NCBI GenBank assembly: GCA_018266765.1
Contig: JAFDZU010000032.1
Coordinates: forward strand, 1-49,422
Length of the DNA: 49,422 nucleotides
Direction: 5' to 3'
Source: Bacteroidota bacterium
GTDB taxonomy: Bacteria; Bacteroidota; Ignavibacteria; Kapaibacteriales; UBA961
Both the position numbers and the translations under genes were made by a program. A model generated the notes under the pieces. It worked only from the letters and a program-made list of their open reading frames with translations. It was not told where the DNA came from and did no database searches. Positions 6,360 to 39,661 of this stretch are shown one piece after another; the stretch's first letter is position 1; each line of letters starts with the position of its first letter.

Positions 6360-6442
6360 ATATTTTCATTAAAATAAAGCATACTTAACACTTTGATCAT
6401 TCTTACAAATATACCGTATTTGCTTGGATATTATTAATAAAA

Positions 6443-6474
6443 TTGGAATAATTAGAGTATTACGATTATCTTTG
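6443..6474 (+). promoter_or_regulatory. Bacteroidota-type promoter (TTG-21-TATCTTTG)
   Basis: TTG at 6443-6445 is followed after 21 bases by TATCTTTG at 6467-6474. This fits the Bacteroidota consensus TTTG-19/21-TAnnTTTG read by their housekeeping sigma factor. It would drive the coupled membrane-protein gene pair and leave a leader of about 115 bases. Confidence 0.5.
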
Positions 6475-8723: not shown

Positions 8724-11700
8724 ATGAAAACTCAATTTTCTAATCTCATAAAGAGCACATTTCGATGCTTGCTCGGTAATAGCCGGTTAATCGTTACAGC
8801 TATGGCAATAATGACAATGGCTATAACAACTCTTCATGCCCAAGAGCCAACATGGCAATGGGTTAAATCCGGTGGTGGTAGCAGTTCGGATGCCGGAACT
8901 GCTACTGTTGTTGATGCGTCGGGTAATATTTATACCTGCGCCAGATTCGGTGGAGTTTCGTTGTTTGGTTCATATTTGCTAACGAGTGCAGGGCAGTCGG
9001 ATGTTATGGTAGCACGGTATAATTCTAATGGTGCTATTCTTTGGGCTGTTCGTGGCGGTGGTACAGGAAATGACGAACCCAATGCAATAGCCGCCGATGC
9101 TTCGGGAAATGTCTATGTAACGGGATTTTTTACCGGAACTGCTACGTTTGGAGGAGTTACACTCACTTCAAGTGGTGGTAAAGATATGTTTATTGTAAAA
9201 TATAGTGCCGCACTTGGGACTGTTGTATGGGCAAAACGCGGTGGAATGATTGCCGACGAAACGGGTAACGGCGTTGCTGTTGATCCATCGGGAAATGTTT
9301 ATGTAACAGGTTCTTATACCGATTCAACAAAATTCGGTTCACTCACTAAATTAACAAGTGCAGGTTCATCCGATGCATTTATCGTACAGTATAATTCCTC
9401 AGGCACAGAGCAATGGTCGAAAACAATAGGCGCAAGTGGTAATGATTCGGGAAATGATATTACAGCCGATGCTTCGAATATCTACCTGACAGGAGTATTT
9501 AGTAATACTATAATCATTGGTACGGATACTCTTATATCAAAAGGCAGTACCGATGTTTTTGTTGCAAAATATAATACATCGGGTGTGGCTCAATGGGGAA
9601 GACGTGGTGGAAGCACAAATGCTGATGTATCAACATCTATTACACTTGATGCTTCGAGTAATGCTGTGATTACAGGTAATTATTCTGGCAAAGCGTTTTT
9701 TGGAACAGACAGTGTAACTGCTGTCGGTAATTCGGATGTATTTGTAGTAAAATATAATCCAAGCGGTACATATCAATGGTTACGCACCGGTGGTGGCTCG
9801 GGCAGTGATTTAGGACAGGATGTAACGACTGATGCATCGGGAAATATCTATGTAACAGGATTTTTCTCGGCTGTAGCAAATTTTGGTTCAAGCGCACTAA
9901 CATCGGTAGGAAAAGCAGATGTATTTGTTGTGAAGTATAGTTCTTCCGGTGCTGTTCAGTGGGCTCAGCGGGCCGGAGGTGAGGATAATGATTATTCTTA
10001 CGGCATCGGGGTTGATAACACTAATAGCTGTTATGTAACCGGCGATTTCTTCTACAAAACAACATTCTGGAATACAACTATTGACGCACAAGGCAGTTAC
10101 GATTATTTTATAGCGAAACTTCCAAATATATCGGCTGTAGATGCAGGAATTACCTCGGTGAATTTCCCGACAGCTCCATTTGCCGCAGGTGCAGGAGCAG
10201 TTACTGTTACACTGAAAAATTTTGGTACTTCGCAAATAGACAGTGTGAAAATTGATTGGACATTTAACGGTAATGCCCAAACTCAAATTAATTATAAAAC
10301 ACCATTGGCTGTAGGTCAAAGTGCGACCGTTGCACTTGGAAATCCAACGTTCCCTGCAAAAACGTTCTCGGAAGTAATTGCAACCACATCATTGCCAAAT
10401 GGTGGTGCAGATTTGAATGAAGCAAATGATTCACGTAGCGGAATTGCCGGACCCGGCTTAGAGCGCGGAGTATATACAATCGGCGGAAATGCACCTGATT
10501 TTATTAATTTTACTCAGTCAGCAATTTATCTAAATATCTGTGGAATATTAGATTCAGTAACGTTTAATGTTCGTCCGGGAATTTACCGTGAGCAAATTAC
10601 ATTAAAGCAAATTCCGGGCGTTGCCGCACTTAAAAAAGTGGTTTTCCGCCAAGAACCTAAAACTGGCTTTACAAAACCGCAAGTTACATTTGGTGCAATT
10701 TATCCGAATAACAATTATGTGTTATTGCTCGATGGCTCGGATTGGGTAACATTCAAGAATATTAATTTTGTTTCTACCGGAACCGACTATGCGCAAGTTA
10801 TTCTATTAAAAAATGGCACTGAAAACGTTGTTCTCGACAGTAATACAATTGAAACTTCTCAAACAGCTATCAGTGATGGCGGGATTTTGTCAGAAGAACA
10901 AAATCAAGCAAATAACCTGACAGTGAGCAATAACTTACTCAGTTCCGGTGTTTTTGGTGTTTCGGTCGAATCTACGTTAGGTACACCGCTTGGTGGATTA
11001 ACAGTCCGCAATAATACATTCACAAATTTTACATCAGTAGGTTTACTTGTCGGTGGATGTGAGTCACCTATTATTACTCGTAATATGTTTTCTCGTCCGG
11101 CATTTTCTTCATCAACAGTTAGCACAAATGCCATTTCTGTTATCGGATGCTCCAATGCGTCGTTAATAACAGCCAATTTGATTTCGGGAATATCTGCCGG
11201 TGTGGGAATTTATGTCGAGAATTGTAGCTCGACGACTCCGGCACAAGCGATGCGTATATCAAATAATGCGATAAATATTGGCTTGGGTAATACCTCTACA
11301 ACGGGTATTGCACTGACTTCGACTTCAGATGCCAACATCTATCACAACACAGTAAATATTGGTTCTACTGCTCCTAAAGCTACAGCATTCAGCGTTTCTA
11401 ATGGCGGCTCAATAAACAGTATTAATAATATATTCTATAATTCAGGTGGCGGGCTTGCTGTTGCAGTGGACTATACTCTTCCGAATAATCCAATTACGTC
11501 AAGTAATTATAACGTGCTGTATTCTAATGGAGCATCAATCGGTACTTGGACACGCAATGCAACATTAACTACATTACCAACACTCAAATCATGGCGAGAT
11601 TCGACAGGATTAGATCTTAATTCAATCTCAAAAGTAATTACATTCCAAAATGATTTGGTTCACCTTGTAACGGTTGATTCTGCACTTTACGGGACACCAA

Positions 11701-29840: not shown

Positions 29841-30116
29841 TTATTTAGGCATTGCTTCTTTTGCTTTTTTAGCATGTTTAGCATGTTTAGCTTCGTGTTT
29901 AGCTTCTTTAGCTTCGTGTTTAGCTTCTTTCATTTCTGCTTTAGCCGCTTTAGCTTCGTGTTTAGCTTCTTTAGCTTCGTGTTTAGCTTCTTTCATTTCT
30001 GCTTTAGCTTCTGCTTTAGCCGCTTTAGCTTCTACTTTAGGTTTTTCACCGGCAAATGCACTTACTGATACTGATACCGCAAAAATTACGGCAAATAATG
30101 CTACTAATTTACGCAT
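29841..30116 (-). CDS. Small exported Lys/Ala/Glu/His repeat protein
   Basis: A 91-aa protein from ATG 30116, supported by GGAG 8-9 bases upstream and by a signal peptide from that start (MRKLVALFAVIFAVSVSVSAFAG). A frame extending to 30197 lacks such support. The mature part of about 68 residues is nearly only K, A, E and H, in a helical repeat: AEMKEAKHEAKEAKHEAK occurs twice in a 21-residue period. It would form a charged alpha-helix or coiled coil in the periplasm. His residues every 7-11 positions could bind metal or nucleic acid; the role is unknown. It has its own candidate promoter and a strong terminator, so it is a single-gene unit. Confidence 0.8.
   Translation of the reverse strand: MRKLVALFAVIFAVSVSVSAFAGEKPKVEAKAAKAEAKAEMKEAKHEAKEAKHEAKAAKAEMKEAKHEAKEAKHEAKHAKHAKKAKEAMPK
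29889..30014 (-). repeat. Two tandem 63-bp coding repeats
   Basis: Two nearly identical 63-bp copies (29889-29951 and 29952-30014) encode the 21-residue helical unit of the Lys/Ala-rich protein. Within each copy, a shorter motif, AGCTTCGTGTTTAGCTTCTT, is repeated. Copy number could change without breaking the frame. Confidence 0.85.
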
Positions 30117-34392: not shown

Positions 34393-34410
34393 CGTTCGAA
34401 GATTCGCAGT

Positions 34411-34515
34411 CAGGTAATGGTTGATATTTCAGTTCGTTCATTTGCTGTTTTCTATTATAGATATTTGCAAAATAAGGAAACTATGTGGAATATTGGTTGT
34501 AGTAACCGACAAGAC
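34411..34515. repeat. Dispersed repeat copy A (core plus 3' palindrome)
   Basis: From AATGGTTGATATTTCAG (34416) through AAAATAAGGAAACTATG to the palindrome TTGGTTGTAGTAACCGA (34493-34509). It is the same series as copy B, minus the first palindrome and the CTCAAATACTTGCC segment, which look precisely missing. It lies between two toxin-antitoxin modules. Confidence 0.75.
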
Positions 34516-34549
34516 GGAAAATAAGATAGAATCATGGTGTACTATTGTG

Positions 34550-34963
34550 CTATTTGTCATGCAGAAATTCTGAGATAGTTACGATTGCAGTACCGCCAAA
34601 TTTTGTCAGGTCTAATAAGTCTTTGTCACCTGTTAGTAAAAAATCGGCGTTCCCGTCGAGGGATAACGAAAGTAAAAAGTTATCTTTTGTATCTCTGCAA
34701 ACTTCTATTTGGGTATGAACCTTTACAAAATCGGCATAGTAGTCTATAGTTTCGAGGAGTTGTTCAATGTCGGCAGGAGAAAAGAAACGTCTGAATTTGG
34801 GTCGCCTTGCAACTTCTAAAAATTCTTCAACTAATTCTTGGCTGAAAACCAAAATGGCGTGCTTTGAAAAAATGATTTCATCAAGTTTCCTAAAATCTTT
34901 GGTGATTAAAAAGCTAATCCAAAGGTTGGTGTCAAGGATAATTCTGCTACATTTCTTTTGCAT
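34550..34963 (-). CDS. PIN-domain toxin of second TA module (PIN family)
   Basis: A 137-aa protein of the 'toxin component, PIN family' type, unlike the VapC next door. Putative metal ligands: Asp11 (RIILDTNLWISFL), Glu46 (QELVEEFLEVARRPKF), Asp91/Asp94 (CRDTKDNFLLSLSL) and Asp113/Asp115 (TGDKDLLDL). The C-terminus ends VTISEFL, as in that family. It overlaps the antitoxin gene by 17 bases. It should act as a metal-dependent RNase held in check by the upstream antitoxin. It faces the VapBC operon across repeat copy A. Confidence 0.9.
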   Translation of the reverse strand: MQKKCSRIILDTNLWISFLITKDFRKLDEIIFSKHAILVFSQELVEEFLEVARRPKFRRFFSPADIEQLLETIDYYADFVKVHTQIEVCRDTKDNFLLSLSLDGNADFLLTGDKDLLDLTKFGGTAIVTISEFLHDK

Positions 34964-35165
34964 AACGCTTGCTTCTTACCAATTCTACTTCGGCGGTTAT
35001 TTCGTCAAATGTAGGTGCGGATTTTGCTTTTGAACGTAGCTTTTTCAGAACGCTTGCAAAACCGTTTTTGGAAGTGTCTTCGATGGCAATGAGGTTCAAG
35101 TCTGCTAAGTCTTTTAAAAGTCTTACAGCTTTGGGATTCAATATTTCAATTCGCATTGTGTTCAT
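34947..35165 (-). CDS. Antitoxin of second PIN module
   Basis: A 72-aa protein; starts at 35165 (MNTMRIEIL) or at the third codon further in-frame Met, 35156. The N-terminus MRIEILNPKAVRLLKDLADLNL recalls DUF2683/Phd-like small antitoxins that pair with 'PIN family' toxins. The C-terminal half (PTFDEITAEVELVRSKRYAK) is charged and helical, the part expected to occupy the toxin. It is translated first and overlaps the toxin gene by 17 bases. Confidence 0.85.
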   Translation of the reverse strand: MNTMRIEILNPKAVRLLKDLADLNLIAIEDTSKNGFASVLKKLRSKAKSAPTFDEITAEVELVRSKRYAKEM

Positions 35166-35337
35166 GTGTCTAATTTAATAAAAAAAAGTGACATGATTGG
35201 TCTTTGTATTCAACAAGATACCGTTATAAAGTAAAACCCATTTATTATACACGAATAGCTCATTGCACAATGGAGGCAAAAACATTGTCTTATCTTCACA
35301 AGACAACGTAAAATGTATCTCTTGCTAATGTCAGCTT

Positions 35338-35490
35338 CCAGTTTGGTCGGATGTTGCAACCAACCTCAAATACTTGCCAAAATGGTTGATATTTCAGTTT
35401 GTTCAGTTGTTGCTGTCTATTACAACTGTTTGTAAAATAAGGAATCTATGTTGAATATCGGTTGTAATAACCGACAAGACGAAAACGATA
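35338..35490. repeat. Dispersed repeat copy B, the longest copy
   Basis: Order: palindrome 1 around 35344-35366 (TTGGT...TGTTGCAACCAACC, decayed), core CTCAAATACTTGCCAAAATG to CAGTTGTTGCTGTC (35366-35417), AAAATAAGGAATCTATG, palindrome 2 TCGGTTGTAATAACCGA (35458-35474), then CAAGACGAAAA. 53 of 55 bases (35363-35417) equal copy C (39538-39592). The palindrome-spacer-palindrome build is like a REPIN. Confidence 0.8.
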
Positions 35491-35534
35491 AATCTGACAA
35501 ACTATCGTGCAGACTTTTCATTTGTATGTGGTTA

Positions 35535-35557
35535 CGTCCAGTTGAAACAACTGGACG
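35535..35557. repeat. Perfect 10-bp hairpin with AAA loop
   Basis: CGTCCAGTTG, AAA, CAACTGGACG. Similar in plan to the TCGGTTGTaACAACCGA palindromes: the inner GTTG/CAAC is shared, the outer arm differs. No T-run follows. Confidence 0.85.
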
Positions 35558-35724
35558 GATGGAAGTCGACATTTATGACCAGACGGATAAAATTATTCTT
35601 GCTTTTGTAAAAATATCCTCGTAAGTTGCGCCCACTAATATATTCACATCAAAAATGCACATAAGTCAGTTTCTCAATTTACAGAAAAATAGTCGGATTA
35701 CACTATCTTATCATTATTTTTTAT

Positions 35725-35856
35725 GGAGATTTTATGACAGCAATTCAATTTTCGGCTGAATCAAACCCAGCAGCAATACCCTATGCGGCTTGCCAGCCAA
35801 GAGCCAAGAGCCAAGAGCCAAGAGCCAAGAGCCCATTTTTCAATAAAACTCATTGA
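35725..35856 (+). other. Ribosome site and 40-codon frame that runs through the heptamer tract
   Basis: GGAG at 35725-35728, five bases, ATG at 35734: the best ribosome site near this locus. The frame codes 40 residues, crosses the 7-bp repeat tract, and stops at TGA 35854-35856. The long downstream T9SS frame is in a different phase. Removing one 7-bp unit, or adding two, would join this start to that frame. It could also be a short leader peptide; there is no recognised product. Confidence 0.5.
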
Positions 35857-38038
35857 ACTTGCGAGTTATATAGTGTTCGTAATTTTCAATATAGTTTTGA
35901 TTTCTTCAGTAAATAGCCTACCTCTCTATAGCCAACCCTTTGAAGTATCTTATAATAGTAAGCCATTCTATCCCGTTGTAAAAATAAAAGCAGAGACAGG
36001 AACATCAATATGTTATTCAGCCGTAACTAACAAATCCATTCTGGCAGGATATGCGGAAATTGAATATTGTGGCACAGGTAATGCGCCATATACTGCAGGA
36101 TATTTACAACGAGTTGGAACTTTAGGAATTCCAGAAGTTATTTCTTATTATGACGGTACAGTTGCTTATCCCACTAGTGTAAAAATTCTTTCTGTGTGTT
36201 ACATACCTAAAGAAGATTTTCCGGGATTGCTTACTGATGATATTATTATTGCTGTAGGTCAAATTGAAAGGAATAAAGGAAATAATCAGATTGACTATGA
36301 TGCGTTGGCGTTCTCGGTAAATGCAACAACATTCGCAAAGATAAGTGTAATCTATGTAGGAAAGGATATACCAGATGATGATGATTGCTTTTACTCCGTT
36401 AAATACAGGCGTGAACAAGCAATAAATTCAAACAATGATGCCGACAAATATAGAATAATAGCAGTAGGTGAAGCGAGACCGGATATTGGAGGTAGATCAA
36501 AACTACTTATGCAGAGGTTCACCATTGCTGCCGGTGGGGTGTTAGTAGGGGGAGTTCCTAAATTATATAGTGATAATGTCACCAACAACGCTTATGTTGC
36601 AAAAGATGTAGATTTGATGTACGATGAAAACAGCGATATACATTGGCAATATATAATATGTGGTTATCAAAGTACTAATCCCGCTACTCACAACAAAAAT
36701 GGTCTCATTATGAGAGTTGATGACCAGCTAAATGTAGTTCAGGTTCCTTCATTACCTATGACACCATTTAACTATAGACCAATGGTGCGTGTCACTCAGC
36801 AAGAAAATGAAGACAGAGTATATAATTCTGTGAAGTTTGTCGGCGGTATTTTCAGCTATGTTCCGAATGTGTCTCAATTGTGTAAGGGCTTTATAGTAGG
36901 TGGAACGAAGGAAAGAATTGATTACCCCAACCCATACTCTGCGAACCGAATTTATCAGCGAAGGATTCTTGCACGTTATGATTATTACTTACGTGCCTCT
37001 GAGACCAAAGAGTATTCTCATTATTCACTTTCTCAAAATAAATTTGTAGAAGTTGAGTATTCTACAGGTGAGAGTGTAATTACAATTTTATCTGATCCTA
37101 ACGCAGTTCCATTAGAACTCAATTGCAATGATAACCCGCCAATTGCAGATAAAATTTTTGAAGACTATAATTATCTTTTGGGAAATAGACAGTATATTTT
37201 AGCAGGTAGTAGATTTGATAAATTAAGTGGCCAGACGCATCCATCCATTACAAGAGTTGATTATACCTTAACTCCCTACACCAACCCAACATCAGTAGTA
37301 GATTACAGTAACGTAACACCTATTCAAGAAGGAAATTTTTCAATAATTTCTTCGTTCGGAGGATCCAAATTTGGCAGAGCAAGAATTTACGGGAGTGTTT
37401 ACCGAAATAACTATAATTATGTACCATGTGGTACGTATTTTTGTACCTCTATTCAAGATACAAAAAGAGGATATTTGGTTGAGGTGAATAATGTAACTAT
37501 GCCTACGAATTTATATGGTGAAACACCCTGTTCATTGAATAAAGATGTTACTAAGAATGATTTATGTCGTTCAAAATTCTATGAAGCTCATGGCTGTTAT
37601 ATCACTCCCGACGGAGAAACTGTAGAGCATAATCAGGGAAGTGTATCAATGATTTGCTATCATGGGACACAATGCGTAGAAATCAGATGTAGTGACGACA
37701 ATACAGTACCACCTATCATAAACCCTATAAAAGTAGAAAACATTGAGGAATTGAGATATAGTACTTTTGGTTCAAAGGATGATGTTACTCACTTCAATGC
37801 CTATTATAGCTTTACCAATCGAGAACTTGTTATAGAGAATTACTCACAGATGAATGAAATAGTATCATTGGAATTAGTTAATGTTATCGGAATGAATCAG
37901 AGTTTGGGAGAAATTTCCATTAAAAACGGAAGTAAAAACATAGTACCGATTAATTCAAGCATATCCAATGGTACATACATTGTAAAAATCAAAAAAGGAG
38001 ACGTCGAAATATTTCATAAACTAATTCACATTTTATAA
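35783..38038 (+). CDS. T9SS-type exported protein, 751 aa, with heptamer repeats at its 5' end
   Basis: An unrecognised secreted protein. From ATG 35783 the N-terminus is MRLASQEPRAKSQEPRA, encoded by the 7-bp repeats, followed by a signal-peptide-like core (ELASYIVFVIFNIVLISSV). This ATG has no Shine-Dalgarno sequence, whereas ATG 35734 in another frame has one, so the present sequence may be a phase-off form. The body is beta-rich with many Cys (for example ICYSAV, CNDNPP, CGTYFCTS) and no known domain was identified; it looks like a large beta-propeller-like mid part. The last ~80 residues resemble a T9SS sorting domain (VIENYSQMNEIVSLELVN ... ISNGTYIVKIKKGDVEIF). It sits 21 bases ahead of a second T9SS gene. 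Confidence 0.72.
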   Translation: MRLASQEPRAKSQEPRAHFSIKLIELASYIVFVIFNIVLISSVNSLPLYSQPFEVSYNSKPFYPVVKIKAETGTSICYSAVTNKSILAGYAEIEYCGTGNAPYTAGYLQRVGTLGIPEVISYYDGTVAYPTSVKILSVCYIPKEDFPGLLTDDIIIAVGQIERNKGNNQIDYDALAFSVNATTFAKISVIYVGKDIPDDDDCFYSVKYRREQAINSNNDADKYRIIAVGEARPDIGGRSKLLMQRFTIAAGGVLVGGVPKLYSDNVTNNAYVAKDVDLMYDENSDIHWQYIICGYQSTNPATHNKNGLIMRVDDQLNVVQVPSLPMTPFNYRPMVRVTQQENEDRVYNSVKFVGGIFSYVPNVSQLCKGFIVGGTKERIDYPNPYSANRIYQRRILARYDYYLRASETKEYSHYSLSQNKFVEVEYSTGESVITILSDPNAVPLELNCNDNPPIADKIFEDYNYLLGNRQYILAGSRFDKLSGQTHPSITRVDYTLTPYTNPTSVVDYSNVTPIQEGNFSIISSFGGSKFGRARIYGSVYRNNYNYVPCGTYFCTSIQDTKRGYLVEVNNVTMPTNLYGETPCSLNKDVTKNDLCRSKFYEAHGCYITPDGETVEHNQGSVSMICYHGTQCVEIRCSDDNTVPPIINPIKVENIEELRYSTFGSKDDVTHFNAYYSFTNRELVIENYSQMNEIVSLELVNVIGMNQSLGEISIKNGSKNIVPINSSISNGTYIVKIKKGDVEIFHKLIHIL
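35796..35833 (+). repeat. Heptanucleotide tandem repeat, 5.4 copies of GCCAAGA
   Basis: Five exact units at 35796-35830 plus GCC at 35831-35833. Seven is not a multiple of three, so each gain or loss shifts the reading frame. It lies within the first 20 codons of a T9SS protein gene. Confidence 0.95.
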
Positions 38039-38059
38039 TTCACAAAGAGCATTAACAGC

Positions 38060-39391
38060 ATGAAATATATAATCTTAATCTTACTTATCTGGATGGTTTC
38101 ATTCGCACATTCAAATGCTCAATGGCAACGCCTGCTTTCTGAGAGAACCTTTTCTATTACTGCCAACCCACTCAATCCAAAAACTATCTATGTTGGTGGA
38201 AAAGGGCGTGTCCTCTATCGTTCATATAATGCCGGAAAGACTTGGGATACCGTAGTAATCAATTTTCGTGACGATAGAGCTATTATTACCAATATTTATA
38301 TTAATTCTATCGATACTACTATAATGATGATTGGGGGTATCAATCTAACTACCATTATACGCAGTGCAGATGGTGGAAAAACTTGGGAAAATAGTCCTGA
38401 GTTTGGTTTTCCTTTGACATTATCCGGTGAATCCATGATTGAAGATGTCAATAACCCAAGCGTAATATACTTTGCACAACTGAGAGGTGGAATTATCTAC
38501 AAGAGTATCGATACAGGAAAAACATGGAAAATTTTAACTAAAAGTTTACCGGTAAATGATGTTTGTAGTCTGGTTATGCTTCCGAATAGCAATACGATTA
38601 TTGGTGGTGCTGATAATGGGTTTTTAGTTAAATCAATTGATGGGGGTTCTACTTGGGATCTCTATCGGGTTGTACCATTTAACAGTGGCGGTCCTGAGAT
38701 ACCGAAGATTGTGTTTAGTACACGTAATAAACTTCTTGGATATGCTGTTGTGACCTATTTTTATCAAGATAAAGTGGACAATGGCGGATTGTATCGCACT
38801 ACCAATGGAGGTGAAACCTGGGAAAATATCTATCTACGGGATACGAGCTTATGGACTATTGCTATACGCAGGGTAGGAAATGAAGATGAACTATTTGTTG
38901 GTGGATATACGGATGATTCTACACCCATAAGAACAGTTCCGGGGAATAGTGTTGTAAGGCATTCTCAGAACAGTGGCTCGACATGGGATGTGATGGATAA
39001 TGCTGTCGATTGGGTGGACACAATCAGAAGAAATGTGTGGATGATGAAATTTGTCAATACTTCACCTGTATATGATCGATTATATATGGCTACAGAATCA
39101 GGTTTCTTTGTGTTTGAGATGCCCGTTTCTGTTGATGAACATGAAGTGCAACCTTCTTCCGACGGTATCCAAATTTCCCCTAATCCTGTTTCTACTTCAT
39201 TGACGGTTTCAGGTTTGGATGGTGTTTCCGAGGTGAAAGTAGTCAATAGTTTGGGAATGGAAGTGCTCAGTCAGCAAGTCATAAGCCATACGTCGGAGTT
39301 TGATGTTTCGGGTTTAGCAAGCGGTATGTATGTTGTGCAGTTCCGCACGCCTACGGGCACGACTTCCAAGCTGATAATAGTCAATCATTGA
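38060..39391 (+). CDS. T9SS-secreted BNR/Ycf48-like propeller protein
   Basis: A 443-aa secreted protein. Signal peptide about 1-20 (ILILLIWMVSFAHSNAQ). Residues about 25-350 are a sialidase/Ycf48-like beta-propeller with SxDxGxTW repeats (RSYNAGKTWDTV, RSADGGKTWEN, KSIDTGKTWKIL, KSIDGGSTWDLY, RTTNGGETWEN, HSQNSGSTWDV). No catalytic sialidase residues were seen, so it is likely a binding or structural propeller. Residues about 355-443 form a T9SS type A sorting domain (ISPNPVSTSLTVSGL ... LASGMYVVQFRTPTG). It is 21 bases after the preceding T9SS gene and cotranscribed with it; a terminator follows. Confidence 0.88.
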   Translation: MKYIILILLIWMVSFAHSNAQWQRLLSERTFSITANPLNPKTIYVGGKGRVLYRSYNAGKTWDTVVINFRDDRAIITNIYINSIDTTIMMIGGINLTTIIRSADGGKTWENSPEFGFPLTLSGESMIEDVNNPSVIYFAQLRGGIIYKSIDTGKTWKILTKSLPVNDVCSLVMLPNSNTIIGGADNGFLVKSIDGGSTWDLYRVVPFNSGGPEIPKIVFSTRNKLLGYAVVTYFYQDKVDNGGLYRTTNGGETWENIYLRDTSLWTIAIRRVGNEDELFVGGYTDDSTPIRTVPGNSVVRHSQNSGSTWDVMDNAVDWVDTIRRNVWMMKFVNTSPVYDRLYMATESGFFVFEMPVSVDEHEVQPSSDGIQISPNPVSTSLTVSGLDGVSEVKVVNSLGMEVLSQQVISHTSEFDVSGLASGMYVVQFRTPTGTTSKLIIVNH

Positions 39392-39408
39392 TAGACCGTT
39401 AAAATAGC

Positions 39409-39449
39409 AAAGCACTGACTGATCTGAATATCGGTCAGAGCTTTTTTTT
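39409..39449 (+). terminator. Rho-independent terminator
   Basis: CTGACTGAT (39415-39423) pairs with ATCGGTCAG (39430-39438) with one wobble; outside an A-A mismatch the stem continues AAAGC/GCTTT; a T-run follows to 39449. It ends the T9SS pair. Confidence 0.85.
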
Positions 39450-39510
39450 GTTCGGTTAGTCGCCACAAATGAGCGTCAACACAATATAGACGTTTCACAG
39501 GTAAGTATTT

Positions 39511-39592
39511 CGCAGTCCAGTCGGCTTGTAACAACCGACCTCAAATACTTGCCAAAATGGTTGATATTTCAGATCGTTCAGTTGTTGCTGTC
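39511..39592. repeat. Dispersed repeat copy C (5' palindrome plus core)
   Basis: Palindrome GTCGGcTTGTaACAACCGAC at 39520-39539, then the core 39538-39592, 53 of 55 bases identical to copy B. The second palindrome is missing. Same orientation as copy B, so copies B and C are direct repeats around the T9SS pair. Confidence 0.85.
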
Positions 39593-39620
39593 AAATAGAT
39601 TTATATATACTGCTCAGCAA

Positions 39621-39661
39621 CGAATGACACGCTTTGCGAACAATTTTTTTGATTTAAAGAT
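39621..39661. repeat. Second copy of the T-rich repeat module
   Basis: GAATGACACGCTTTGCGAAC, T-run, then AAAGATT. It matches GAATAACACACTTTGCTAAG, T-run, GAAGATT at 34361-34404 in most positions. Here the module follows the core; at copy A it precedes the core. Confidence 0.6.

Follow-up and report, generated by a model that had tools for sequence, protein, structure and literature searches.

Slipped-strand switching is best known from host-adapted pathogens. In the neuO gene of E. coli K1 (carried by prophage CUS-3), the reading frame depends on how many AAGACTC heptamers the 5' coding region contains; the gene is out of frame in most sequenced genomes, and in one strain 93% of cells held 21 repeats and the others 20 or 22 (PMC13001214). 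Surface genes of H. influenzae with heptamer and tetramer tracts form a second precedent, among them hmw1A and hmw2A, where 7-bp repeats control a surface protein (PMC2651432). Heptamer repeats are over-represented in bacteria, and in Xanthomonas, Nostoc, and Beggiatoaceae their arrays are mainly intergenic (PMC4692102, PMC4679880). In the open-access library searched, a general review was all we found that joins type IX secretion (T9SS) with slipped-strand mispairing, no joint treatment of Ignavibacteria and phase variation turned up, and a search by letters for the heptamer studied here, GCCAAGA, returned unrelated work only among the matches listed. Contingency loci seem to be undescribed in the bacterial group to which our DNA belongs. 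Here we describe a GCCAAGA tract at the 5' end of a gene for a probable secreted protein and argue that it is likely to be a slipped-strand (contingency) switch.

The window, a 49,422-nt stretch of DNA, carries a perfect heptamer array, (AGCCAAG)5.57, at 35795-35833 on the forward strand (Tandem Repeats Finder score 78, 100% matches). It spans 39 nt, or 5.57 copies counting partial units, with zero mismatches, and contains five whole, exact GCCAAGA units at 35796-35830. The array is thus a perfect tandem repeat with a unit of 7 bp, which is not divisible by three, as is expected of a contingency locus. When we looked for a genome-wide spread of the heptamer, this proved to be the single GCCAAGA array of at least three units in the 3.71-Mb genome, with no second one found. 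Our survey sample, stretches totalling 628 kb of this genome, held no other perfect array of at least 28 nt with a unit of 4-12 nt, and the first 60 nt of long ORFs make up merely 3.9% of it. Under an independent-base model, such runs are expected by chance about 1e-12 times per 3.7 Mb. Prediction of RNA structure over the tract gave a null result (z -0.29).

Two ATG codons are candidate starts for the gene that follows. A Shine-Dalgarno-like (SD) GGAG at 35725-35728 stands five bases before ATG 35734, from which a 40-codon frame (35734-35856, forward strand) runs through the tract to a stop codon at 35854-35856; a 751-codon frame (35783-38038, forward strand) opens in another phase at ATG 35783, which has no SD motif and gives a product beginning MRLASQEPR. 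The repeat therefore lies between the start inferred to be functional and the body of the gene, and its copy number (n) sets the frame. We simulated n=0 to 10 by frame arithmetic: the long frame connects to ATG 35734 at n=1, 4, 7, or 10, to ATG 35783 at n=2, 5, or 8, and to neither at n=0, 3, 6, or 9. The product is 765 aa long at n=4 and 751 aa at n=5, the assembled copy number. A sequence-only reading of this DNA had already picked out the five units in the first codons of the gene, the GGAG, the two frames with their different phases, and the lack of a ribosome site at the second start, all of which the sequence bears out; its proposal that losing one unit or gaining two would fuse the good start to the long frame also holds (n=4 and 7), but it overlooked the third, fully OFF state.

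Which ATG is used can be judged from its surroundings. We compared 270 likely starts with 2147 ATGs inside genes in the 628-kb sample, taking AT content over the 30 bases before each ATG. Mean AT content was 0.743 (sd 0.090) before likely starts and 0.606 (sd 0.088) before internal ATGs, and an SD-like motif preceded 34% and 10% of them, respectively. ATG 35734, with an AT content of 0.833 as well as the GGAG, is richer in AT than almost all internal ATGs, 0.4% of which reach that value, and by this context it is the probable true start. For ATG 35783 the AT content is 0.467, a value as low as which occurs in 1.5% of likely starts. Because just 34% of the genome's likely starts have an SD motif, its absence alone is weak evidence; the stronger argument against ATG 35783, judged from base composition, is the low AT content before it. 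Since the context of a true start is found at ATG 35734 and is missing at ATG 35783, the assembled state, n=5, is probably OFF or very low.

These observations suggest how the switch would work. Ribosomes would start at ATG 35734, and replication slippage would add or remove 7-bp units and so shift the frame. At n=4, 7, or 10, translation from ATG 35734 would continue into the putative signal peptide and the rest of the long frame (ON), making MTAIQFSAESNPAAIPYAACQPR part of the long-frame protein. At n=5 this start would yield a 40-residue dead-end peptide, with weak expression at most from ATG 35783, and at n=3 or 6 no ATG would feed the long frame. Slippage at the locus, export of the ON product, and any effect on the next gene through polarity, as put forward in the sequence-only reading, are what we infer here rather than anything directly observed.

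The long frame has a strong hydrophobic core (about 35858-35902) followed by LYS-QPFEV, which we take to resemble a Bacteroidota signal peptide. The n-region would be 25 or 39 residues long, depending on the start; the roughly 39 residues ahead of the core in the ON protein are long for a signal peptide and are a weakness of the switch reading. At its other end the protein has a weak T9SS sorting domain: TIGR04183 scored 19.7 bits against a cut-off of 23 when the C-terminal 112 aa were searched, and 6.7 bits (E=7) with the entire protein. The gene immediately downstream (38060-39391, forward strand) starts 21 bases after the stop at 38038, as the sequence-only reading had it, and encodes a T9SS cargo protein with BNR/sortilin-like repeats and a C-terminal sorting domain that passes the same test (PF18962, 40.9 bits; TIGR04183, 45.2 bits against the cut-off of 23). 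The T9SS assignment made for both genes is thus firm for the second and weak for the first. Neither 61 genomes nor genome_contigs contained relatives of the 751-aa protein, and a structure predicted without an alignment was unusable (pLDDT 30).

Both genes belong to a strain-specific insert, running approximately from 34400 to 39640 between vapC and a glycosyltransferase gene, that is absent from two genomes of the same genus (G001 and G002). There a dihydrolipoyl dehydrogenase gene adjoins the glycosyltransferase gene, with vapBC in between in one of them, and about 100 to 140 bp separate the last stop from the glycosyltransferase gene; the window carries about 5.2 kb extra at this point, comprising a PIN toxin-antitoxin pair and the two secreted-protein genes. 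Because the candidate switch sits on this island, there is no orthologue in which copy numbers could be compared. Three direct repeats on the forward strand (71-105 nt aligned) bound and split the 5.2-kb island at 34416-39597: copy A (34416-34520) is 86% identical to copy B (35352-35490), and copy C (39527-39597) shares 90% identity with copy B over 71 nt. Across the genome this repeat gave no more than four matches, one of them a 29-nt piece on contig C76. We considered an integron cassette array and rejected it: no integron integrase match in the genome exceeded the TIGR02249 cut-off, the repeat has merely these four matches, and it folds no better than its shuffles. Separately, a short frame of the window contains degenerate 21/63-bp repeats at 29854-30040 (TTTAGCTTC...), with the 63-bp unit duplicated exactly.

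The same heptamer occurs far beyond this genome. At least 119 stretches with nearly five units (34 nt) were found in genome_contigs, in many phyla. By a simple ORF test, 79 of the 129 arrays among the matches listed are intergenic, and these listed arrays avoid open frames relative to random positions; most therefore are not coding switches. Special enrichment of GCCAAGA finds no support in viral contigs, where 10 stretches carried it and 8 carried the reversed sequence used as a control. A minority of the matches listed has the contingency layout, with examples from one genome of our order and from two further phyla. In Spirochaetia GtrA genes (PF04138) whose downstream DNA is 93-94% identical, this heptamer directly follows the ATG in 7.7, 8.9, and 9.9 copies, giving different frames, and it is only at these genes that copy number is shown to vary between close homologues. 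Arrays of several units right behind the ATG of GtrA and glycosyltransferase genes were seen at eight Spirochaetia loci (L027, L029, L114, L058, L107, L234, L235, and L236). Read on the opposite strand, the conserved DNA just downstream of the Spirochaetia arrays is TTGACA-16/17-TATAAT, so the array may lie between two promoter-like sites that face each other. Two Synergistales genes, which we take to be glycosyltransferase-like, also have the heptamer tract at their 5' end. In Flavobacteriia, two genes have the heptamer, on the other strand, immediately before their start: L040, which is TonB-dependent receptor-like, and L120, which encodes a secreted protein. At these sites it possibly forms a leader or promoter tract.

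The same-order genome, G424, also belongs to the Ignavibacteria and shares relatives with the window's genome at the rank of order. Its locus L134 carries (GCCAAGA)6 at 6431-6472 on the reverse strand, in the order GGAG, ATG, nine codons, array, signal-peptide core, and a 1673-codon frame; the gene is currently out of frame and would be in frame at n=2, 5, or 8. A paralogue about 48% identical, L251, has a 3.6-copy decamer (1435-1470) at the same point, in frame. In L281, a gene related only weakly, an 8-copy decamer (10194-10273) sits at a contig end, directly before the signal peptide, the start lying beyond the contig end. The two decamers are related and, together with the L134 heptamer, make three different non-triplet repeats in one genome. 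We suggest, tentatively and with rather less confidence than we place in the switch itself, that large secreted proteins of the order are recurrently switched by non-triplet repeats placed after the start codon and ahead of the signal-peptide core, and that the window locus would be a three-state form of this switch (strong, weak, off) with two starts in different frames, on a strain-specific island.

Since the heptamer is elsewhere mostly intergenic and the gene pair lies on a strain-specific island, the main rival to a switch is a passive microsatellite: the island gene would be a recent acquisition with the repeat in its leader or 5' end, and would be read from ATG 35783 or be decaying. The occurrence of the heptamer in many phyla and its avoidance of open frames among the matches listed speak for such a passive repeat, as does the coding bias of the long frame, which shows the genome's bias in its own frame (0.122 bits per codon) and is weaker than its neighbours (0.16-0.38). 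There is also an in-frame ATA AAA at 35843-35848 which, were ATA ATG, would open a typical MK signal peptide, MKLIELASYIVFVIFNIVLISSVNSLPLYSQ; an older start codon at 35843 has possibly been lost, a further hint in the same direction. However, the context of ATG 35783 is very poor for a start that would have to serve the gene, the 751-codon frame is intact, and passive repeats hardly account for the three secreted-protein genes of G424, each with a different non-triplet repeat at that position. On this evidence we judge a passive repeat unlikely, though the most probable of the alternatives. Counted against the switch, too, are the five units, which are short for a fast-switching tract, the lack of an orthologue, and the intergenic position of most arrays elsewhere among the matches listed.

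Two further explanations appear much less probable. The 40-codon frame could encode a leader peptide after which ribosomes reinitiate a short way on, GTG 35873 being one such site, the repeat just lengthening the leader; its stop does lie 17 nt before this GTG, from which the long frame would begin inside the hydrophobic core, but a start there would give MFVIFNIVLISSVNSLPLYSQ, which lacks a signal peptide's basic n-region, and no conserved leader is known because the gene has no relatives in the 61 genomes or genome_contigs. We regard this as quite improbable, and we give slightly less credence again to an error in the assembled copy number that would leave the real genome fixed in frame at four units, with no switching. 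The assembly is indeed a draft of 106 contigs, and longer arrays of the heptamer end contigs in other assemblies among the matches listed; against this, reads are far longer than the 39-nt array, which sits in unique sequence inside a 54-kb contig. The slipped-strand reading, proposed from the letters alone, emerges as the best supported, drawing on start context, the same-order layout, and copy-number differences between homologues of other genes, while no relative carries this gene.

The repeat before a probable secreted protein here, with its layout shared by three genes from the same order, suggests such hedging of the surface or secreted proteome in environmental T9SS bacteria too. It further urges caution in annotation, as the called start at 35783 and the L134 frameshift may be switch states and not errors. 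The window locus and the same-order genes supply concrete loci for testing with reads.

How does the locus compare with described switches? It resembles lic2A and related tetramer-repeat genes of H. influenzae in having a repeat behind the start region of a surface gene; those genes, however, have tetramer units in long tracts, encode LOS glycosyltransferases, and are experimentally shown to switch, whereas the window locus is known from sequence. Loci of the lic2A type have three-state expression. More than one initiation codon can reportedly give graded expression at such genes (Dixon et al. 2007). The hmw1A and hmw2A repeats lie in the promoter and tune transcription, whereas the window repeat would act on the reading frame. 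Like the TAACTGA arrays of Beggiatoaceae and the GGGAATC arrays of Xanthomonas, ours consists of perfect heptamers, but those are intergenic, occur in many copies per genome, and have no role in framing, in contrast to one array genome-wide in a 5' coding region (PMC4679880, PMC4692102). L134, L251, and L281 share with the window locus a non-triplet repeat at the signal peptide, and L134 the heptamer itself; their proteins are not homologous to the window protein, and their switching is likewise a candidate. Compared with neuO, a capsule O-acetyltransferase gene with 3-53 repeats and proven switching, the window offers a probable secreted protein, five repeats, and a candidate switch; common to both is a heptamer in the 5' coding region whose copy number sets the frame.
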